From Gemmatimonadota bacterium (GTDB lineage: Bacteria > Gemmatimonadota > Gemmatimonadetes > Gemmatimonadales > GWC2-71-9), in the NCBI GenBank assembly GCA_003222155.1, contig QHUU01000061.1, positions 1 through 64,000 on the forward strand: DNA of 64,000 nucleotides, written 5' to 3'. Position 1 is the first letter of the stretch. The number at the start of each line of letters is the position of its first letter. The position numbers were made by a program, and so were the translations under genes. The notes beneath the pieces are model-generated. The model was given only the letters and a program-made list of their open reading frames with translations. It was not told where the DNA came from and did not search any database. Below, piece by piece: positions 23,559-33,467 of the stretch.

Positions 23559-24134
23559 CTAGTCCGGTAGCTCGCGCCGCAGCAGCAGCGTCCACCGCAC
23601 CAGCGCCTCGAGCATCTGCCGGATCCGCTCGCGCGTGGGATCGTGGATGAGGTTGCCGTTCGGGTCGAACTTTTCCTGTGCATCGCCGATCAGCACCTCG
23701 GGCTGGGCGAGCGCGGGCATGTTGAGAAACACCAGCATCTGGCGGAGGTGGTATTGGGCCCGGGCCGTCGCGATCGGGCCGCCCGACGCACCCATGATCG
23801 CCGCGGGCTTTCCGTCCCAGGCGCTGTCCCCGTAGGGGCGCGACGCCCAGTCGATCGCGTTCTTCAGCACGCCCGGAACCGAATAGTTGTATTCGGGCGT
23901 GACGAACAGCACTGCGTCCGCGCCGCGGATGCGACGCTTGAAGTCGGCGACCGTGCCCGGGGGGTCGGTCTCGAGGTCCTGATTGTACAGCGGCAGCTGG
24001 CCGATCTCGGCGACCTCGAGCCTCGCGCCCGATGGCACGAGCTGCTGCGCCACACGCAGCGCGGAGCGGTTGTAGGAGCCCCGTCGCAAGCTGCCCGGGA
24101 CGCCGAGAATGGTGATGGGGGTATGCGTAGTCAC
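23559..24134 (-). CDS. NADPH-dependent FMN reductase family flavoprotein
   Basis: This 191-residue flavodoxin-like reductase has a phosphate-binding loop ILGVPGSLRRGSYNRSAL at the N-terminus and flavin-contact segments TPEYNYSVPGVLKNAIDW and AAIMGASGGPIATARAQ. It belongs to the group of quinone/azo/chromate reductases with FMN. I choose the GTG at 24134 because GAGG lies 5-8 bases upstream and the protein then begins just before the loop as in relatives; an ATG at 24170 would overlap the divergent radical SAM start codon. The divergent arrangement with the selenoprotein gene, 34 bases apart, may mean shared control. Confidence 0.9.
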   Translation of the reverse strand: MTTHTPITILGVPGSLRRGSYNRSALRVAQQLVPSGARLEVAEIGQLPLYNQDLETDPPGTVADFKRRIRGADAVLFVTPEYNYSVPGVLKNAIDWASRPYGDSAWDGKPAAIMGASGGPIATARAQYHLRQMLVFLNMPALAQPEVLIGDAQEKFDPNGNLIHDPTRERIRQMLEALVRWTLLLRRELPD

Positions 24135-24168
24135 GTGGACCTCGGTGTAGTTTGCTTGTACGAACATC

Positions 24169-25626
24169 ATGCCTGAATCGCCGGTTCCTGTCGTCGCCGC
24201 GCTGCGCGCGCCGGGAGCGATCCTCGTCGTGTCCTGTTACGAGCTCGGTCACCAGCCGCTCGGCCTCGGGTGGCCGATGGCGTTTCTCGAGCGCGCGGGA
24301 TACGCTCCGCGGGCGCTCGACCTCGCGCTCGAACCCCTGGACGACGTGGCGGTGCGCCGGGCACGCCTCGCCGCCATCATGGCCCCGATGCACACGGCCC
24401 TGCGCCTCGGCGTACCGGCGGCCCAGCGCCTCCGGCGCCTCAACCCGAGCTGCCGGATCGTGTTTTGCGGCTTGTACGCACTGCTGTGCGCCGAGTTCCT
24501 GCTCGATGGCGTCGCGGATGACGTGATGGGTGGGGAATTCGAGGGCGAGCTCGTGGCGCTGGCGCAGCGTCTCGAGGCCGGAGCGGAGCGCGGGCGCCGC
24601 ATTGCGACGCTCGAGCGGCTCGCGTTCCCGCTGCCGAGCCGCGAGTCGCTTCCGCCGCTGGCGCGATACGTGCGGCTCGCGCGCGAAGGCCGCTCCGTGC
24701 CGGCCGGATACGTCGAGGCGAGTCGCGGTTGCCTGCATACGTGCCTCCATTGCCCCATCCCGCCGGTCTACAACGGGCGTTTCTTCGCGGTGCCGCGCGC
24801 CGTGGTGCTGGAGGACGTGCGTCGACTGGTCGCCGCCGGGGCGGGGCACATCACGTTCGGCGATCCAGACTTCCTGAACGGCCCGGGACACGCGCTCAAG
24901 CTGGTACGGGACCTGCACGCCGAGTTTCCCGGCGTGAGCTACGACTTCACCAGCAAGATCGAGCACGTGCTGCGTCACCGGGAGCTGTTCCCCGAGTTCG
25001 GCGCCACCGGGTGCGCCTTCGTCGTGTCGGCGGTGGAGGCGCTTTCGGATGTCGTGCTCGCCAATCTCGAGAAGGGGCACACCAAGGCCGATGTGCCCGG
25101 GGCGATCGACGTGCTGCGCCGCGCCGGCATCGCCCCTCGCCCGACCTTCGTACCGTTCACGCCGTGGAGCACGCTGGACGACTACATCGAGTTGTTGGAC
25201 TTCCTCGAGGCGCAGGACCTCGTGGATCACGTCGACCCGGTTCAGCTCACCATCCGGCTGCTGGTGCCCCCGGGCTCGCTGTTGCTCACCCGGCCCGCGC
25301 TCCGTCTCGCGCTCGGCCGGCTCGACGCGCCCGGCCTCAGCTATCGCTGGACCCATCCGGACCCGCGGATGGACGAGCTGCAGCGCGACGCCAGCGCCCT
25401 CGTGGCCGACGCGGCGCGTGCCGAGGAAGATCCCGGGGTCACGTTCTACCGTATCCGCGAGCTCGCCGACCGGCGCGCCGGCCGCCCGACGCCCCTGGCG
25501 CCGTTCCGGCGGCCGCCGCCCGAGCGACCTGTCGCGCCACGCCTCACCGAGCCGTGGTTTTGCTGAGCGGAGCCGACCGAGAGCCAGTTGGGCTCTGTGG
25601 AGCGCGCGGCGGGCGGATGGGGCTGA
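24169..25626 (+). CDS. radical SAM selenoprotein with Cys-Sec-Ala-Glu-Pro tail
   Basis: This is a radical SAM enzyme of 485 residues if the TGA at 25564 is read as selenocysteine (Sec466); it ends at residue 465 if TGA is taken as a stop. The N-terminal 150 residues resemble a cobalamin-binding (Rossmann) fold without the B12 histidine motif. The 4Fe-4S motif is CLHTCLHC near residue 190. At the 3' end the codons TGC TGA GCG GAG CCG give C-U-A-E-P, and the frame stays open for 19 codons after Sec. A hairpin at 25580-25596 has the position and loop of a bacterial SECIS. I recall an annotated family of CUAEP/CCAEP-tail radical SAM (seleno)proteins; its substrate is unknown to me. Confidence 0.85.
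25580..25596 (+). promoter_or_regulatory. putative bacterial SECIS hairpin
   Basis: AGAGCC (25580-25585) pairs perfectly with GGCTCT (25591-25596) around the loop AGTTG. The loop begins 22 bases after the T of the UGA, and G is its second base, followed by T. This matches the spacing and the loop guanine required for SelB binding in bacterial SECIS elements. Confidence 0.75.
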
Positions 25627-25677: not shown

Positions 25678-26886
25678 ATGGCTCTTCGAGCGTCTCTTCC
25701 GCTCTGCGTCGCCTTGTGCGGCGCGGCTGGAGCCCCTCCTCTCCTCGCGCAACAAGCGGTCACGCGCGCCCAGGCGGTGGAGGCGGCCCTGGCGCGCGGC
25801 GCTCGCGCCGCGTTCGGCCGCGCGGACACGGCCCTGGCTGCGGGGGTGCTGCGGGCGGCTCGCGCGTTTCCCAACCCGTCGCTCGCGGCGACCTACACGA
25901 AAGACGTTCCGCATTATCACTACATCGCCGACCTCGCGCTCGACCTGCCGTGGCTGCGCTCCGCACGGATCGGCGCCGCCGCGTCCGCGCGCGAAGCGGC
26001 GCGTTACGGGTTCGCGTTCGAACGCGCCGCCATACGGTTCGACGTGGACACCACCTATACCCGTGCGCTCGCCGCACTCGCGCACGCGCGCCTGTCGCGC
26101 CGCACCGCGCGCGACGCCGACAGCTTGCTGGCGATGGCGCGGTTGCGCCGAGAGGTCGGCGACGTGAGCGAGCTGGACGTGCGGCTCGCCGAGGTGAACG
26201 CGGGCCAACTCGAGATCATCGCGGTGGACGACTCGCTTGCCGCGCTGGACGCGCTGCTCGGCGTCCAACTCGCCATGGGGTTGCCGGCCGATGCGCCGGG
26301 GATCACGCTCGTCGACTCGCTCGCGCCGCCCGCCGACAGCGTGCCGGGCGACCCCGGCGAGCCGCTGCGGGTCACGGCGGCCGACGCGACCCTCCGCGCC
26401 GCGCAGCGCGCGCTCACGTTCGCTCATCGCAGCGTCTTCGCGGCGCCCAGTCTCCAGGCGGGTATCGAGCGGGGTGACCCGACCGCGCCAGCCGGGACCG
26501 TGCTGCCGACGGTCGGGGTGTCGTTACCGTTCCCGCTCTTCAACTGGAATGGGGGCGAGATCCGTCAGGCACAGGCGGCTCGCGACCGGGCGCAGGCACA
26601 GCTCGATGTGACGCGCCGGGAATCCGCCGCCGACATGAGCCGCGCTCGTCGCGTCCTCGCGGCGGCACTGGATCGCGTGGCGCGCGGCCGTCGCCTGCTG
26701 GCGAGCGCGGACGGTGTGGCGGCGATGTCGCTGCGAGCGTACGCCGAAGGCGCCATTCCCCTCGCCAACGTGCTCGAGGCGCAACGCAACGCCCGCGAAG
26801 CGCTCGCCCGCTACATCGACGACGTCGCCGCGGCAAACAACGCCGCGGGAGCGGTGCGCCTGTTCACCGCACCCGAGCCGTCGTGA
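25678..26886 (+). CDS. TolC/CusC-type outer-membrane efflux protein
   Basis: This 402-residue outer-membrane channel component has a signal peptide (residues 1-24, ending PLLAQQ) and two helical OEP repeats. Each has the pattern of alpha-barrel helices plus a beta-barrel strand pair (FPNPSLAATYTKDVPHYHY in the first, TVLPTVGVSLPFPLFNWNGGE in the second). It is the first gene of a three-gene pump operon, overlapping the membrane-fusion gene by four bases. The small hairpin TGTCAG-CTTC-CTGACA (25630-25645) lies just upstream and could be an operator; no clear promoter was found. It is shorter than E. coli TolC, like CusC-type members. Confidence 0.88.
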   Translation: MALRASLPLCVALCGAAGAPPLLAQQAVTRAQAVEAALARGARAAFGRADTALAAGVLRAARAFPNPSLAATYTKDVPHYHYIADLALDLPWLRSARIGAAASAREAARYGFAFERAAIRFDVDTTYTRALAALAHARLSRRTARDADSLLAMARLRREVGDVSELDVRLAEVNAGQLEIIAVDDSLAALDALLGVQLAMGLPADAPGITLVDSLAPPADSVPGDPGEPLRVTAADATLRAAQRALTFAHRSVFAAPSLQAGIERGDPTAPAGTVLPTVGVSLPFPLFNWNGGEIRQAQAARDRAQAQLDVTRRESAADMSRARRVLAAALDRVARGRRLLASADGVAAMSLRAYAEGAIPLANVLEAQRNAREALARYIDDVAAANNAAGAVRLFTAPEPS

Positions 26887-27953
26887 CGCGCGCTCTGGCC
26901 CTCCTCCTCACCACCGTGGCGGCGCTCGCGGGGTGTCGCGGCGAGCGTGAGGGAAGCGCGGCGGCCGAGCCGCCCGCCGACCAGGGCGGCGCCCGGGTCG
27001 GGACGGCGCAGGTCGCGACGCAAGCGTTCTCACAGGTCGTGACCGCGATCGGGACCGTGACCCCGCGGCCCGGTCACTTCGCGGAGCTGGCCGCGCCGGC
27101 GCCCACCCGTGTGGCGCGCATCCGCGTCGCCGTGGGCGACCGCGTGGCGCAAGGAGACACCCTGCTCGAGTTCGAGCGCGAGCCCTTCGACGCGGCGGCG
27201 CAGAGTGCGGCGACGGCGCTCGAGAATGCTCAGCACGCCTACGCCCGTGCGGTGCGCCTGGTGCAGGCCGGCATCCTGCCCCAGAAGGACTCGGACCAGG
27301 CGGCCGCCGATCTCGCCCAGGCCCAGCTGGCCGCCGTGACGGCCCGGCGCGCCCAGCAGCTCGCCACGCTACGGACTCCGATCGCCGGGGTCGTCACCCG
27401 CATGAGCGCCGTGCTCGGCGCCTCCGCCGATCAGAACCAGCCGCTGGTCGAGGTGGCCGACCCGACGGCGCTGGACATTCTGTTCGGCGTGTCTCCCGCC
27501 GACGCGGCGCAGATTCGCGACGGCGACACCGTGGCCGTGGCGGGGGGCGGGGGGGGCGGCGGGGACGCGCAACTGGGGCAGGGGCGCGTGACGGGCGTCG
27601 CGGCCGCGCTCGATTCCGCGTCCCGCGCGGTGACGGTCCGCGCCGAGCTGCGCCGCCCCAGCCGTCCGCTCCGAATCGGCGAATCGGTCGTCGGCCGGAT
27701 CGTGACGGCGGTGCACGCGCAGGCCGTCACGGTGCCGCTCGCCGCCCTGGTTCCGAACGGGGACGCGTTCCAGGTCTTCGTCGTGGACTCGAGCGGCGTG
27801 GCCCACTCGCGCCCCGTGAGGATCGGCGCCCGGAGCGACTCCGTGGCCGAGATCGCGTCGGGCCTCGCGCCCGGCGAGACCGTCGTGACCGCCGGGGCCT
27901 ACGGCATCCAGGACGGCGCCAAGATCTCGCGGACCGTGCGGACGCCGGAGTGA
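26883..27953 (+). CDS. RND efflux periplasmic adaptor lipoprotein
   Basis: This 356-residue membrane-fusion protein has a lipobox at AALAGC (Cys18). In order it has a barrel-sandwich/lipoyl half (ELAAPAPTRVARIRVAVGDR), a short helical hairpin (YARAVRLVQAGILPQKDSDQ), the second lipoyl half (LRTPIAGVVTRMSAVLGASA), and beta-barrel and membrane-proximal domains. It links the TolC-type channel to the RND pump. A run of about eight glycines near residue 225 is encoded by G-tracts (one of eight Gs at 27549-27556) and is unlike the rest of the protein. GTG start; the gene overlaps both neighbours by four bases. Confidence 0.92.
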   Translation: MTRALALLLTTVAALAGCRGEREGSAAAEPPADQGGARVGTAQVATQAFSQVVTAIGTVTPRPGHFAELAAPAPTRVARIRVAVGDRVAQGDTLLEFEREPFDAAAQSAATALENAQHAYARAVRLVQAGILPQKDSDQAAADLAQAQLAAVTARRAQQLATLRTPIAGVVTRMSAVLGASADQNQPLVEVADPTALDILFGVSPADAAQIRDGDTVAVAGGGGGGGDAQLGQGRVTGVAAALDSASRAVTVRAELRRPSRPLRIGESVVGRIVTAVHAQAVTVPLAALVPNGDAFQVFVVDSSGVAHSRPVRIGARSDSVAEIASGLAPGETVVTAGAYGIQDGAKISRTVRTPE

Positions 27954-30900
27954 CGCTGTTCGACGTCGTCAGTCGCCAGCGGCGGCTGGTGCTGCTGCTG
28001 GTGGGCCTCGTAAGCGTCGCCGGGATCTGGGCCGGCTTCCAGCTGCCGTCCGCCATCTATCCCGAACTGAACTTCTCACGCATCAAGATCGTCGCCCAGG
28101 GATCGAGCCTGGGCGCCCGGCAGATCGTGTTCAGCGTGACGCGCCCGCTGGAAGAAGCGGTCAGCGTGGTGCCGGGCGTGACGCGCGTCCAGTCGCATTC
28201 CATCAGAGGTGCGAGCGAGCTATCGATCAACTTCTCGCCCACCACGGACATGGCGTACGCGCTGCAGCTGGTGCGCGCCCGCGTGAACCAGATTCAGGGC
28301 TCGCTCCCCCCCGACCTGGACATGGAGATCGAGCGGCTCACGCCCTCGCTCTTTCCCATCCTCTCGTACAACCTGCAGGGCGGCGACCCCGCCACGCTGT
28401 ATGACATCGCGCGCTACGAGATCAAGCCGCTGCTCTCCCGCGTCCCGGGAGTCGGCCGTGTGGAGGTGCAGGGGTCCGACGTGCGGGAGATCGAAGTCAT
28501 GGTGGATCCCGCGCGGCTCGCCGCCGTGGGCATCTCCTATGCGGATCTGGCCGACGCCATCCGGCGGGCCGTGACCGTGCAGGCCGTGGGGCGCGTGGCC
28601 CAGAACTATCGCCAGTACCTCATCGTGACCGATCAGGAAGCCCACAGCGCCGACGACGTCGGCGCCGTGGTGCTGGGGAGCGGCCTGCACGTGCGGGACG
28701 TGGCGACGGTGCAGGTGGGCACCGAGGATCACGTGCGGATCGTGGCGGGCGATGGCAAGCCCGCGGCGCTCATCAACATCGCCCGCCAGATCGGCGGCAA
28801 CACCGTGGCGATCGCGGACAGCGTGGCCGGCGTCATGACGGGCCTCACCAAGAGCCTGCCGCCGGGTGTGCGCCTCAAGCCGGTGTACGACCAGGCGGCG
28901 CTGGTGCGCGACGCGGTCCGCTCGGTGCGCGACGCGATGCTGGTCGGCGCCGCGCTCGCGGTGGTCGTCCTGCTCGTGTTTCTGCGGCACGGCCGCATCA
29001 CGGCCGTCAGCGCCACGTCGATCCCGGTCACCCTCGCGGTGACCATCTTCGTCATGAGCGTGATCGGCCAGACGTTCAACCTGATGACCCTGGGCGCGAT
29101 GGCGATCGCGATCGGGTTGGTGATCGATGACGCGGTCGTCATCACGGAAAACATCGCGCGGCACCTCCTGCTCGGCGGCGGGCGAGTCCAGGCGATCCGC
29201 GCCGCGGTTCAGGAGCTGATCTGGCCGGTGACCACCTCGACCATCACCACCGTGGTCGTCTTCCTCCCGCTCGGCCTGCTCCAGGGCGTGGTCGGGCAGT
29301 TCTTCGCCGCGCTCGCCACGACCCTCACCGTCGCCGTGCTGGTGTCGCTCGCGCTCGCCCTCACGCTCATTCCGCTCCTCGCCGAGCAGTTCGTCACCGC
29401 GCACGAGGTGGACGCGAGCGTCACGGGCATCCTGGCCCGGGTGCAGCACGCGCTCGAGGAGCTGGGACCGCGCTACGAGCGCGCACTGGCGGGAGCCCTG
29501 GATCATCCCCGGAGGCTCGGCGCGGCGCTGCTTGTCCTCGCCGCCGCCGGCTTCGGCCTGTGGCAACTCGTGGGCACCGGGTTCCTGCCGGAAATCGACG
29601 AGGGGGCGTTCGTGCTCGATTACTTCACGCCCGGCGGCACCGCGCTGGCGGAAACGGACCGCGAGGTCGGCATTGCGGAAAGTATTCTCGCCGCGACACC
29701 GGAAATCACAGGGACTTCACGGCGGACCGGCGCCGAGCTGGGGTTTTTCGCGACGGCCCAGAACTCCGGCGACATCGTGGCGCGGCTCATGCCCCGGAGC
29801 CGGCGCTCCCGCGACGTCTTCGCCGTCATGGACCACGTCCGGGACGAGGCCACGACCGCCATCCCGCGCCTGCACATCGAGTTCATGCAGATCCTGGCGG
29901 ACGTGATCAACGACCTCGCCGGCGCGGCGCGCCCGGTCGAGGTGAAGCTGTTCGGCGAGTCGCTCGACACCCTCGAAGCTTATGCGCGGCGGCTGGCCCC
30001 GAACCTGGAGCAGGTCGGCGGGCTCGAGGACCTGTACAACGGCGTGAGTGAGCCGTCGGCGGAGCTGCTGATGCGGGTGAACGAGGCGGAAGCCGGCCGG
30101 ATCGGCATGACCCCGGTGGACGTGGGGAGCGCGGTGAGCGCCGCCCTGCTCGGCATGCCCGCCGGCGAGATCCGCACCGGGGATCGACCCGTCGCCGTGC
30201 GCGTGCGGGCACCCGACTCGGTGCGCTTCGATCCGCTGCGCCTGCGCGCCCTCCCGCTCTTGGGCGGCCCGGCGCGCCGCGTGACCCCGCTCGGCAGCCT
30301 GGCGACGTTCGAGCCGACCGAGTCGCGGCTGAGCCTCGAGCGGGAGAATCAGCAGCAGATGATCGTGCTGACGGCGGACGTGAGCGGGCGATCGCTGGGC
30401 GGCGTCATGACGGACGTGCGGCGCGTGCTGGCGGCGCATCCCGCGCCGCCGGGCGTGCGGGTGGCGCTCGGGGGCCAGTACGCCGGCCAGCAGGAAGCGT
30501 TCCGGGCGTTGCTGCTGGTGCTCGGGCTCGCCGCCGTCAGCGTCTGCGCGGTGATGGTGGTGCAGTTCGAGTCGTTCGTCGAGCCCCTTGTCGTCTTGCT
30601 CGTCGCGCCCGTCTCGTTCGTCGGGGCCCTCGCGCTGCTGTTCCTCACGGGCACCCCGCTCAACGTCTCGTCGTTCATGGGGCTGATTCTGCTGGTGGGG
30701 CTGATCGTGAAGAACGGCATCATCCTGCTCGACTTCACCAAGTTGAGGATGCAGAGCGAGGGCGCGACGCTCGAGGCCGCGATCCGCGAAGCCGCCCGGG
30801 TCCGGCTCCGCCCCATTCTGATGACGACGCTGTGCACCCTGTTCGGCCTGCTGCCGCTCGCGCTCGGGATCGGGGCCGGGAGCGAGATGCAGCGTCCGCT

Positions 30901-31018
30901 CGCCCTCGCCGTCATCGGAGGGTTGGCGCTGTCGACTCCCATCACCCTGTTCGCGGTCCCGATCCTGCTCGTGGCGATCCGGGGCCGGACGTTCACGCTG
31001 CCGCGAGCGGGAAGGTGA
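27950..31018 (+). CDS. RND-family efflux pump permease
   Basis: This 1022-residue inner-membrane proton-driven exporter has twelve predicted membrane helices and two large periplasmic loops. The first helix is RLVLLLVGLVSVAGIWAGFQ; the helix-4 region carries GLVIDDAVVITENIARHL with the paired aspartates expected for proton relay. Helices 8-12 follow from about residue 850 (VVLLVAPVSFVGALALLFL, LLVGLIVKNGIILLDFTKL). The sequence groups with the heavy-metal/hydrophobe RND pumps, and the substrate cannot be fixed from the sequence. The last 26 bases overlap the end of the convergent sensor kinase gene. Confidence 0.94.
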   Translation: MTLFDVVSRQRRLVLLLVGLVSVAGIWAGFQLPSAIYPELNFSRIKIVAQGSSLGARQIVFSVTRPLEEAVSVVPGVTRVQSHSIRGASELSINFSPTTDMAYALQLVRARVNQIQGSLPPDLDMEIERLTPSLFPILSYNLQGGDPATLYDIARYEIKPLLSRVPGVGRVEVQGSDVREIEVMVDPARLAAVGISYADLADAIRRAVTVQAVGRVAQNYRQYLIVTDQEAHSADDVGAVVLGSGLHVRDVATVQVGTEDHVRIVAGDGKPAALINIARQIGGNTVAIADSVAGVMTGLTKSLPPGVRLKPVYDQAALVRDAVRSVRDAMLVGAALAVVVLLVFLRHGRITAVSATSIPVTLAVTIFVMSVIGQTFNLMTLGAMAIAIGLVIDDAVVITENIARHLLLGGGRVQAIRAAVQELIWPVTTSTITTVVVFLPLGLLQGVVGQFFAALATTLTVAVLVSLALALTLIPLLAEQFVTAHEVDASVTGILARVQHALEELGPRYERALAGALDHPRRLGAALLVLAAAGFGLWQLVGTGFLPEIDEGAFVLDYFTPGGTALAETDREVGIAESILAATPEITGTSRRTGAELGFFATAQNSGDIVARLMPRSRRSRDVFAVMDHVRDEATTAIPRLHIEFMQILADVINDLAGAARPVEVKLFGESLDTLEAYARRLAPNLEQVGGLEDLYNGVSEPSAELLMRVNEAEAGRIGMTPVDVGSAVSAALLGMPAGEIRTGDRPVAVRVRAPDSVRFDPLRLRALPLLGGPARRVTPLGSLATFEPTESRLSLERENQQQMIVLTADVSGRSLGGVMTDVRRVLAAHPAPPGVRVALGGQYAGQQEAFRALLLVLGLAAVSVCAVMVVQFESFVEPLVVLLVAPVSFVGALALLFLTGTPLNVSSFMGLILLVGLIVKNGIILLDFTKLRMQSEGATLEAAIREAARVRLRPILMTTLCTLFGLLPLALGIGAGSEMQRPLALAVIGGLALSTPITLFAVPILLVAIRGRTFTLPRAGR

Positions 31019-32258
31019 TCGCGACGCGCGTGCCACCCTCCGGCGGGGACGCGATCTCGATAGCGGCGCCGTGCACGTCGGCGATCCACCGGGCGATGGC
31101 GAGGCCCAGCCCGGCCCCCTCCGCCTCGTGGCGCGCGCGCTCACCCCGGTAGAACCGCTCGAACACATGGGGGAGCTGCTCGGCCGGAATGCCCATGCCG
31201 GTGTCGGTCACGACGACCGCCGCGCGCCCGTTCCGGGCGGACACGTCGAGCCGCACCCGACCGCCCGCCGGCGTGAACTTGAGCGCATTGTCGAGCACGA
31301 TGAGCAGCAGCTGGCGTACCAGCGCCGCATCGCCGGTGATCCTCGCTTCCTCGAACGCCCCGACCTCCACGAACACCTGTCGCTGGCCGGCGCGGGCGCG
31401 TGCCGCATCCACGGCACCGGCGACGGCGTCGTCGAGGTACAGCGTCTCCCGCACGACCGGCCACTCGCCGGCGTCGGCACGCGCCAGCGTGAGCAGCTCC
31501 CCCGTGATCTCGCCGAGGCGCGCCGCCTCGCGCTCGATCGCCTGAAAGGCGGCGGCGTCGCGGGACGGCTCCCGCCCCTGGCCCGCCGCGACCTCGGCGC
31601 GGGTCCGCAGCAGGGTGATCGGCGTGCGCAGCTCGTGCGCCGCGTCGGCCATGAAGCGGCGCATCTGCTCCATCGAGCGCTGCACCGGGGCGGTCGACTT
31701 GCGCACCAGCAGCGACCCGCCGCCCGCCACCAGCAGCATCGCCGCCAGCGCCGCCGCGGCGAAGGCCTCGATCAGCGACGCGTACTCGTCCTCCAGCTCC
31801 AGCCGGTCCGCCACCACCGCCGCCACGTACGGCGTGCCGGTGGTGCCGGTGAACCGCTCCACGTACAGGCGCAGCCCGTGCCCGTCCGGGGCATCGAGGT
31901 CGCGGTACCCGTGCTTCGCCCGGGCGGCGTGACGGAACGCGTCCCGGGTCCAATCGGGGACCACCGCCGGCTTGATCGGATGGAAGTCGTCGTCGAGCAG
32001 ATAGAGCGCCCGGTCGGGGATGTGGAGCTCGTCGACGGCGTCCACTACGGCCCCTCGCGCGCCGGCGCGCTCGCTCTCGCGGATCCGCGCCGCCTGCTCC
32101 AGCGCCGCGGCCGCGGCCCGCAGCGACACGTCCAGGTGCCGCGACATCTGGCGCCGCACCGTCAGGAACAGACCGCTCCCCAGGACCACGAGCACGAGCA
32201 CCAGCACACCGGCGTACCAGGCCGTCAACTGGAGCCGGAGACGGGCGAGCGGATCCAT
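30993..32258 (-). CDS. two-component sensor histidine kinase
   Basis: This 421-residue membrane sensor has TM1 (residues 13-34), a periplasmic sensing domain of about 130 residues, and TM2 (about 163-185). An HisKA domain follows with the phosphorylated His208 in FMADAAHELRTPITLL, then an HATPase domain with the N-box (LIVLDNALKFTPAGG), G1 (VTDTGMGI) and G2 (GAGLGLAIARWI) motifs. Ten bases separate it from the response regulator gene upstream. It is convergent with the RND pump, so it likely controls that pump; this is inference. It resembles CusS/QseC-type kinases in layout. Confidence 0.95.
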   Translation of the reverse strand: MDPLARLRLQLTAWYAGVLVLVLVVLGSGLFLTVRRQMSRHLDVSLRAAAAALEQAARIRESERAGARGAVVDAVDELHIPDRALYLLDDDFHPIKPAVVPDWTRDAFRHAARAKHGYRDLDAPDGHGLRLYVERFTGTTGTPYVAAVVADRLELEDEYASLIEAFAAAALAAMLLVAGGGSLLVRKSTAPVQRSMEQMRRFMADAAHELRTPITLLRTRAEVAAGQGREPSRDAAAFQAIEREAARLGEITGELLTLARADAGEWPVVRETLYLDDAVAGAVDAARARAGQRQVFVEVGAFEEARITGDAALVRQLLLIVLDNALKFTPAGGRVRLDVSARNGRAAVVVTDTGMGIPAEQLPHVFERFYRGERARHEAEGAGLGLAIARWIADVHGAAIEIASPPEGGTRVAITFPLAAA

Positions 32259-32268
32259 CAGCGGTGGC

Positions 32269-32937
32269 TCACGGACCGAACCGGTAGCCCGCGCCCCGCA
32301 GCGTCGTGATCAGCTTGGGCTCGAACCCGTCGTCGATCTTGCGCCGCAGGCGCCGCACCAGCACCTCCAGCACGTTGGTGAAGGGATCGTGATTGTCGTC
32401 CCACACGTGCGCCGTGATCGTGGCGCGGTCGAGCACCTGTCCCGGATGGGTGACGAACAGCTCCAGCAAGGCGAACTCCTTCGCGCTGAGCGTGAGGAGG
32501 CTGTCGCCGCGGCGCACCCGGCGGGCGGCGAGATCGACCTCCAGGTCCGCGATGCGATGCACGGCCGGCGTGAGCGCGGGACGCCGTCGTGCCAGCGCCT
32601 TGAGGCGCGCGAGCAGCTCGCGGAACGCGAACGGCTTGGTGAGGTAGTCGTCCGCGCCGACCTCGAGCCCCCGGACCCGGTCGTCCACGGCATCGAGCGC
32701 CGTCAGCATGAGCACCGCCGTGGTCACGCCCTGACGCCGCAGCTCGCCGCACAGCTCGAACCCGTTGCCGCCGGGGAGGCGCACGTCGAGAATGATGACG
32801 TCGTACGTGGCCAGCCCGGCCTGCTCCCGTCCCTCGGCGAACGTCGTGGCCAGCGTCGGGTCGATGCGCTGCGCGCGCAGGCCGTCGCGCAGCAGCGCGG
32901 CGAGCTCGGGATCGTCCTCGACGATCAACACCCGCAT
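32269..32937 (-). CDS. OmpR/PhoB-family response regulator
   Basis: This 222-residue regulator has a receiver domain (residues 1-115) with the phosphoacceptor Asp51 in VIILDVRLPGG, acidic Glu7-Asp8-Asp9 and Lys101 (LTKPF). A winged-helix DNA-binding domain follows (ARRVRRGDSLLTLSAKEFAL, NVLEVLVRRLRRKID, ITTLRGAGYRF). I chose the ATG at 32937, where the receiver begins MRVLIVEDD; upstream in-frame sequence is low-complexity and not conserved. It is the first gene of the two-component operon and is divergent from the bacilliredoxin gene. Confidence 0.96.
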   Translation of the reverse strand: MRVLIVEDDPELAALLRDGLRAQRIDPTLATTFAEGREQAGLATYDVIILDVRLPGGNGFELCGELRRQGVTTAVLMLTALDAVDDRVRGLEVGADDYLTKPFAFRELLARLKALARRRPALTPAVHRIADLEVDLAARRVRRGDSLLTLSAKEFALLELFVTHPGQVLDRATITAHVWDDNHDPFTNVLEVLVRRLRRKIDDGFEPKLITTLRGAGYRFGP

Positions 32938-32988
32938 AGGCGACGCTCCGAATCGAGACGGGAGGGGAGGCGGTCTCCGCTCCACCCA

Positions 32989-32996
32989 ATTATGAT
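32989..32996. promoter_or_regulatory. overlapping divergent -10-like elements
   Basis: In the 92-base gap between the response regulator and the bacilliredoxin gene, TATGAT (plus strand, 32991-32996) overlaps CATAAT (minus strand, 32989-32994). Either could be a -10 box; matching -35 boxes are weak. Overlap would make the two promoters mutually exclusive. Confidence 0.3.
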
Positions 32997-33029
32997 TCAC
33001 GGGAAGACACTTTGCGATTCGAGGAGCCC

Positions 33030-33467
33030 ATGACCAGCCTGAACGTCCCCCTCTACGACCCCCGCCTCGTGCAGCCGATGCGCGAGGAGCTGACGCGGAT
33101 CGGATTCCAGGAGCTGCGCACGGCCGCCGACGTGGACGCAGCACTCGAGACCGCGCAGGATACCACCCTCGTCGTCGTGAACTCGGTGTGCGGCTGCGCC
33201 GCCCGGAACGCCCGCCCCGCCGCGACGCTGGCCATCCGGCACGGGAACCGCCCGCGACGGCTGTTGACCGTGTTCGCCGGCCAGGACGCCGATGCCACGG
33301 CGCGAGCGCGCAGCTACTTCACCGGCTATCCCCCGTCGTCGCCGCAGATGGCGCTGTTCAAGGATGGCAAGCTCGTCTTCATGCTCGAGCGGAAGAACAT
33401 CGAGGGACGGCCGGCGCAGGACATCGCGGCCGACCTGACGGCGGCCTTCGAGCGATACTGCGACTAA
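33030..33467 (+). CDS. BrxA/BrxB (YphP/YqiW) family bacilliredoxin-like protein
   Basis: This 145-residue thioredoxin-fold protein of the YphP/YqiW (DUF1094) family reduces protein-bacillithiol mixed disulfides in Firmicutes. The family's CGC active site is Cys54-Gly-Cys56 in VNSVCGCAARNARPA. The ATG at 33030 is chosen because GAGGAG lies three bases upstream (33021-33026); a TTG at 33012 has no such site. Whether this organism makes bacillithiol or another low-molecular-weight thiol is not visible here. It is monocistronic, with a large hairpin directly after its stop. Confidence 0.9.
   Translation: MTSLNVPLYDPRLVQPMREELTRIGFQELRTAADVDAALETAQDTTLVVVNSVCGCAARNARPAATLAIRHGNRPRRLLTVFAGQDADATARARSYFTGYPPSSPQMALFKDGKLVFMLERKNIEGRPAQDIAADLTAAFERYCD

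Follow-up and report, generated by a model that had tools for sequence, protein, structure and literature searches.

The 64,000-nucleotide stretch of a Gemmatimonadota genome analysed here (the window) contains a gene for a radical SAM protein of the CUAEP-tail family. Comparison with related genes indicates that its internal TGA codon at 25564 is almost certainly decoded as selenocysteine (Sec) by means of a hairpin at 25580-25596. Profile searches identify the predicted selenoprotein as a full-length relative of ArsL, which is its only characterised close relative. Gene content across genomes further suggests that the CUAEP enzyme and an ATP-grasp L-amino-acid ligase are, in all likelihood, partners. 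The gene has the following parts.

24169..25626, + strand: gene for the CUAEP-tail radical SAM selenoprotein; 485 residues with Sec at 466; frame open when TGA is read as Sec
24223..24561, + strand: N-terminal B12-binding-like Rossmann domain, residues 19-131; PF02310 at 21.8 bits, below the cut-off of 32.1
24730..24753, + strand: CX3CX2C radical SAM cluster motif, Cys188, Cys192 and Cys195; PF04055 at 36.9 bits, cut-off 29.5
25561..25563, + strand: TGC, Cys465, first residue of the Cys-Sec pair; invariant in alignments
25564..25566, + strand: TGA predicted to be read as selenocysteine, Sec466; TGA/Cys exchange in relatives, and selA, selB, selC and selD in the genome
25567..25587, + strand: conserved tail AEPTxxQ after Sec; residue tables from 67 TGA and 29 Cys genes
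25580..25596, + strand: predicted bacterial SECIS hairpin; stem 25580-25585 with 25591-25596, loop AGTTG at 25586-25590; model fit and covariation

An ATG at 24169 opens the frame, and a TGA at 25624-25626 closes it. A sequence-only reading of this DNA had described codons 25561-25575 as TGC TGA GCG GAG CCG (Cys-Sec-Ala-Glu-Pro) with the frame running on to 25624, and the sequence agrees. It had also warned that ordinary gene calling would cut the protein at residue 465, which is where open reading frames called with the standard code do end it. The family of CUAEP/CCAEP-tail proteins that the reading named exists as the NCBIfam equivalog model NF040546 (rSAM_CUAEP). The window protein scores 667.5 bits against a cut-off of 500, and its match runs from profile position 1 to 467 of 468. 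The family therefore already has a catalogue entry and a name. That name was given from sequence, and no function has been proposed in the literature we searched. Our searches found no paper on CUAEP or CCAEP proteins, though an earlier description may still exist. NF040546 and CUAEP go unnamed in the main text of a 2026 inventory of prokaryotic selenoproteins (PMC13188914).

We compared the window gene with the best 80 of 526 relatives from a scan of 84,980 species genomes. These 80 come mainly from uncultured bacteria of the Gemmatimonadota, Rokuibacteriota, Nitrospirota, Acidobacteriota, Poribacteria, Planctomycetota, Thermomicrobiota and other groups. The sequence-only reading had proposed that cysteine at the TGA position in relatives would support Sec. 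Among the best 80 of 526, the site is TGA in 49 of 78 genes and TGC or TGT in the other 29, a ratio that carries little meaning because the sample is biased to the query and one search pattern favoured Cys forms. The exchange itself is, as sequence evidence, decisive for Sec. On a tree with many poorly resolved deep forks, the Sec/Cys state changed at least four times. Closer to the window, 17 genomes of its taxonomic family, its own included, score above the NF040546 cut-off. An in-frame TGA is present in 16 of them; the 17th copy ends at a contig end before the tail and was left out of the count. Phylum-wide, every gene copy that reaches the tail has the TGA.

The residues after the TGA bear on the alternative that this codon is an ordinary stop and that the AEP-containing continuation arose by chance. 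Homologues that all end at this codon, with no AEP beyond it, had been named as the outcome that would count against Sec; AEP follows in 67 of 67 TGA genes and 29 of 29 Cys genes. The A, E, P and Q of AEPTxxQ are kept in both forms, while the residues between them are tied to the hairpin in the Sec forms only. Because A, E, P and the later Gln persist in the Cys forms, we conclude that the tail is kept for the sake of the protein. An ordinary stop would fit the unexceptional single-sequence fold of the region (z = -0.66) and the fact that a second TGA ends the window's frame. It does not explain a Cys codon at the same site in 29 of the best 80 of 526 relatives, all with AEP after it, a hairpin that covaries in TGA genes only, or a genome with the complete Sec machinery. 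We regard this alternative as vanishingly improbable.

The genome of the window is 95% complete at 3.45 Mb, and its closest named relatives are Gemmatimonadetes MAGs. A search for selA, selB, selC and selD, as the reading had advised, found all four. selB scored above its cut-off, selA reached 554 bits, selD 396 bits, and the tRNA-Sec 80.9 bits with anticodon TCA. selD (contig C93, 86883-87815) is itself the second selenoprotein gene of this genome, with an in-frame TGA in GAG-Sec-ACK and hairpins downstream. Across the phylum, selB is present in 22 of 27 genomes with the CUAEP gene and 261 of 368 without it (p = 0.17), a comparison that is uninformative because selB is common in the phylum.

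The hairpin consists of AGAGCC, the loop AGTTG and GGCTCT. It had been placed 16 bases after the TGA, a figure that holds when counting starts at the T of that codon; the spacing is 13 nt from TGA to stem and 19 nt from TGA to loop. The bacterial SECIS model calls for a loop of 3-9 nt, a stem of 4-16 bp, a G in loop positions 1-2, a UGA-to-loop distance of 16-37 nt and a minimum free energy (MFE) of at most -7.5 (PMC13188914). The claimed match to this model holds throughout, with a loop of 5, a stem of 6, a distance of 19 nt and a G at loop position 2 followed by U. Its energy comes to -9.7 kcal/mol when folded and to -8.5 kcal/mol with only the stem counted. Taken alone, the sequence folds with no unusual energy (z = -0.66, as above), and we built the case for a SECIS on comparison.

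The ≤ -7.5 threshold was reached by 52 of 68 TGA genes and 2 of 29 Cys genes (p = 2.7e-13, with relatives that are not independent). The best model-conforming hairpin averaged -9.1 kcal/mol in the 68 TGA genes and -2.0 in the 29 Cys genes. Nearly all TGA genes carry the hairpin at one fixed position. Of the 335 cells for its five inner pairs, 334 hold a standard pair, with exchanges between C-G and U-A and between G-C and A-U. The same columns in Cys genes are paired at about half of cells or less, and the hairpin is absent. In 26 diverse sequences, 96.2% of cells were paired, compared with 78.5% in shuffles and 14-55% in slid controls; the slid controls keep relatedness, which the shuffles lose. 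TGA genes showed 35 double-sided pair changes against 10.7 in shuffles, and none of 500 shuffles was as high. Some stem changes came with an amino-acid replacement (Glu to Gly in locus L027, Ser to Gly in L022), pointing to conservation of the RNA rather than the protein there.

Even for Thermomicrobium roseum DSM 5159 (NC_011961.1; locus L144, 11953-13460), a cultivated type strain, the CUAEP protein is truncated in public annotation. The RefSeq CDS TRD_RS12835 stops at WFC, and the DNA past WFC reads TGA-AEPLEDPSGPVASQ with the same kind of hairpin. After the annotated end, the locus carries TGA-AEPLEDPSGPVASQVRMVDQPLR with a SECIS-like hairpin. By its sequence, the T. roseum gene is a Sec form whose annotated protein is cut short at the Sec codon. 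As a cultivated bacterium with a Sec form, T. roseum DSM 5159 is therefore a usable experimental source.

We examined the protein for the parts expected of a radical SAM enzyme. It belongs to this superfamily by its CX3CX2C motif, its PF04055 score above cut-off and a confident predicted model. The motif is invariant in all of 40 relatives and in 4 ArsL-type proteins. The predicted structure has a mean pLDDT of 91.4, with a B12-domain-like N-terminus and a radical SAM barrel, and its nearest structures are AprD4, OxsB and MiaB. Confidence drops to a pLDDT of 65 in a linker at residues 441-450 and returns to 79-89 at 451-470, the C-terminal segment with the Cys-Sec pair. Cys23, Cys282 and Cys465 are additional near-invariant cysteines among the 40 relatives. 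We also considered a cobalamin-dependent enzyme. The DxHxxG motif was found in none of the 40 relatives and PF02310 falls below its cut-off, so cobalamin binding is not supported; DxHxxG is missing from some B12 enzymes as well.

The tie to ArsL comes from profile searches. The model for ArsL-type proteins with an RCCLKC tail (NF040542) matches residues 18-409 of the protein with 269 bits, while the matches of other radical SAM models are confined to the core and end by about residue 353. For all 40 relatives tested, ArsL was the sole other family at E ≤ 1e-30. The protein is not itself an ArsL: 269 bits is below the NF040542 cut-off of 450, the best NF040542 score genome-wide was 268, and the RCCLKC tail is absent, the vicinal pair alone being common to it and the WFC-Sec-AEP end of the window protein. 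Identity to ArsL-type proteins is only 29-35%, which leaves room for an altered reaction. In a joint alignment, the two families share no cysteines other than the cluster's three and the pair in the tail, where Cys465-Sec466 aligns with the Cys-Cys of RCCLKC. Ahead of the tail the two families have stretches of unequal length, so the tail alignment hangs on the shared pair and not on flanking identity. Cys23 and Cys282 have no counterparts in the ArsL-type proteins of the alignment. ArsL transfers a 3-amino-3-carboxypropyl group from SAM to As(III) and so makes AST-OH, the precursor of arsinothricin; this has been proposed to be a group transfer to bound arsenic (PMC8552651). A later paper also describes this ArsL chemistry and cites a 2024 mechanistic study (PMC12159101).

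The Cys-Sec pair could be either a ligand for the acceptor atom or a redox device, and by analogy with ArsL we consider a ligand role somewhat more likely. The sequence-only reading had suggested a redox pair with a part in catalysis or in reduction of the modified product. The redox reading takes the pair, on the pattern of mammalian thioredoxin reductase, as a shuttle whose selenenylsulfide passes electrons to or from the active site during an ordinary 5'-deoxyadenosyl radical reaction. It would suit the predicted placing of adjacent Cys and Sec on a C-terminal segment behind a low-confidence linker, and redox enzymes make up most characterised selenoproteins (PMC13188914). The near-invariant Cys23 and Cys282 could relay electrons, and a flavin reductase gene adjoins the window gene. 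ArsL has the same vicinal pair, yet the reaction proposed for it is transfer to bound arsenic (PMC8552651). Moreover, no thioredoxin-like partner is prominent near the gene in the loci of the best 80 of 526 relatives. The adjacency of the flavin reductase is not conserved either, the nearest relative's gene overlapping an enoyl-CoA hydratase gene instead. We judge a redox shuttle rather unlikely, if less so than the sulfur-insertion reading taken up below.

The flavin reductase gene (NADPH-dependent FMN reductase family, 23559-24170, - strand) lies between the enoyl-CoA hydratase and radical SAM genes of the window, and the latter two overlap by ATGA in the nearest relative (locus L081). As called, its start runs into the beginning of the radical SAM gene, and a later start near 24134 is likelier. 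We rejected both neighbours as functional partners. Against ArsH, whose cut-off is 292, the flavin reductase reaches 55 bits, and it is not the adjoining gene in relatives; the enoyl-CoA hydratase is upstream in close Gemmatimonadota kin only. Directly downstream, 25678-33144 encodes an efflux set (TolC, a periplasmic adaptor and an RND pump of CzcA or multidrug type) followed by an apparent two-component system.

Gene neighbourhoods of relatives point to a different partner. In 76 loci from the best 80 of 526 relatives, the commonest neighbour family by far was an ATP-grasp protein of L-amino-acid ligase type. It lies within three genes in 36 of these 76 loci, with 17 Sec and 19 Cys forms from several phyla. 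Its domains are PF18130, PF13535 (114.5 bits) and PF18603 (65.9 bits), and its best solved match is the L-amino-acid ligase BL00235 (137 bits). The ATP-grasp core and the LAL C-terminal domain place it among L-amino-acid ligases. Plasmids of Alicyclobacillus, Priestia and Klebsiella carry RCCLKC-tail clusters that include a related ATP-grasp ligase. The ligase gene adjoins the CUAEP gene in many phyla outside the Gemmatimonadota, but in most Gemmatimonadota it does not. The window's genome has an ortholog (60% identity) on contig C103, where the order metE - Nfu (Nfu_N and NifU) - ligase (locus L154, 4919-9154) is unlinked to the CUAEP gene. metE adjoins the Nfu-ligase pair in several other Gemmatimonadota, and a link of the CUAEP-ligase pathway to methionine is possible.

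Co-occurrence was also counted across the phylum. Among 395 genomes, the ligase is present in 25 of 27 with the CUAEP gene and 23 of 368 without it (p = 3.9e-24). Counted by genus, the figures are 12 of 13 and 11 of 125 (p = 2.7e-10); neither genomes nor genera are fully independent in these statistics. The ligase-Nfu pair also occurs in genomes without the CUAEP gene (23 genomes with the ligase), some of them 95-99% complete. The ligase thus also has an independent role, and the dependence is one-sided. DUF169 proteins occur mainly with the Cys forms of Nitrospirota (17 of 20 loci from the best 80 of 526 relatives). Several Nitrospirota loci (L084, L092, L099, L121 and others) have the order CCAEP radical SAM - DUF169 - ligase - an opposite-strand gene for a 144-residue protein that has no Pfam or NCBIfam match.

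Nfu-type Fe-S carriers are the other recurrent neighbour. They lie within three genes of the CUAEP gene in 18 of the 76 loci from the best 80 of 526 relatives, and 18 of the 19 Nfu genes in all flanks of these loci are that close. In further loci of the same phylum, the ligase adjoins an Nfu gene in 14 of 17. This raises the alternative of sulfur or selenium insertion that consumes a cluster, as in lipoyl synthase, with Nfu restoring the auxiliary cluster and the tail serving as a ligand for that cluster or for sulfur delivery. Three kinds of Nfu genes adjoin the CUAEP gene or its ligase in many phyla, NFU1 is known to support catalysis by human lipoyl synthase (PMC9585516), and Cys23, Cys282 and Cys465 are extra near-invariant cysteines. 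Against this, Cys23 and Cys282 are missing from ArsL-type proteins, and Nfu may serve general Fe-S supply, other Fe-S assembly genes also being neighbours in Ignavibacteria. Insertion chemistry of this kind seems to us improbable.

We asked what the neighbourhoods say about arsenic as the acceptor. Neither arsQ nor arsM is beside the window gene. Among the loci of the best 80 of 526 relatives, arsM and arsR were near one only (L123), and a weaker ArsM-like match was near L104. L123 (6327-10380, from a Chloroflexota MAG) has the arsenite methyltransferase and ArsR genes near a Sec-form CUAEP gene and ligase. We rejected arsenic genes as a general neighbourhood of CUAEP genes. arsM is also no commoner in genomes with the CUAEP gene (20 of 27) than without it (272 of 368). 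With arsenic genes near one locus and arsM unenriched, the acceptor is probably not arsenic in general.

We propose a model in which a Sec-decoded, ArsL-like enzyme makes an unusual amino acid that the ligase builds into a dipeptide; taken whole, this account has a little under an even chance of being right. A [4Fe-4S] cluster on Cys188, Cys192 and Cys195 would reductively split SAM in the uncommon direction, giving a 3-amino-3-carboxypropyl group. Cys465-Sec466 would hold a soft acceptor atom, a metalloid or chalcogen, that receives this group, and the product would be a homocysteine- or methionine-like amino acid. By analogy with ArsL we infer this cleavage, acceptor ligand and product only tentatively. 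The ligase would then join the enzyme's amino acid to another, a step that is plausible though short of probable. Nfu beside the ligase may supply or repair Fe-S clusters. As a ligand, the pair would be softer, more acidic and faster with Sec than with Cys, but Cys can stand in for Sec, as in Nitrospirota and Ignavibacteria. A bolder and rather doubtful form of the model is that the Sec/Cys-tailed ArsL relative, Nfu and the ligase form an undescribed three-part pathway, shared among more than ten phyla of bacteria from soil and groundwater. One amino acid of its dipeptide would have a new bond from carbon to a metalloid or to selenium, made by Sec presenting the acceptor to an amino-carboxypropyl radical. 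If true, presentation of the acceptor atom by Sec would, as far as is known, be a catalytic function new for this residue among radical SAM enzymes. To the catalogued family this analysis adds a SECIS tested by covariation, the link of the gene to the ligase and Nfu, and the alignment of Cys-Sec with the ArsL tail; the link and the tail alignment are unreported in the literature we searched. With the ArsL tie and the ligase profile, an uncharacterised radical SAM selenoprotein becomes part of a concrete pathway of two enzymes, for which a first assay fits in one tube.

We compared the CUAEP system to known families. The window gene is like NF040546 in its CX3CX2C motif, its WFC-[Sec/Cys]-AEP tail and the TGA or Cys at the site, with no difference between them. 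Radical SAM selenoproteins of the 2026 inventory (the TIGR04167 GxxU type and TrsS, NF045646) also have an in-frame Sec-UGA, but they belong to other families (PMC13188914). The partner ligase resembles the ATP-grasp dipeptide synthetases BL00235/BacD in its domains and scores far below the BacD and DdaF cut-offs. Mammalian thioredoxin reductase ends in a Gly-Cys-Sec-Gly tail. Its adjacent Cys-Sec near the C-terminus is alike without homology, whereas the window protein has 19 residues after Sec and a metalloid-enzyme relative with Cys-Cys. The likeness to ArsL comprises homology over residues 18-409, the radical SAM motif, a C-terminal vicinal Cys pair and an ATP-grasp amino-acid ligase in RCCLKC clusters. 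Beyond the score below the ArsL cut-off, the two differ in further ways. CUAEP genes are generally without arsQ or arsM neighbours, the window protein has a longer stretch between core and tail, and where ArsL has RCCLKC with a third Cys, the window protein has WFC-Sec-AEPTxxQ, with Sec for the second Cys.
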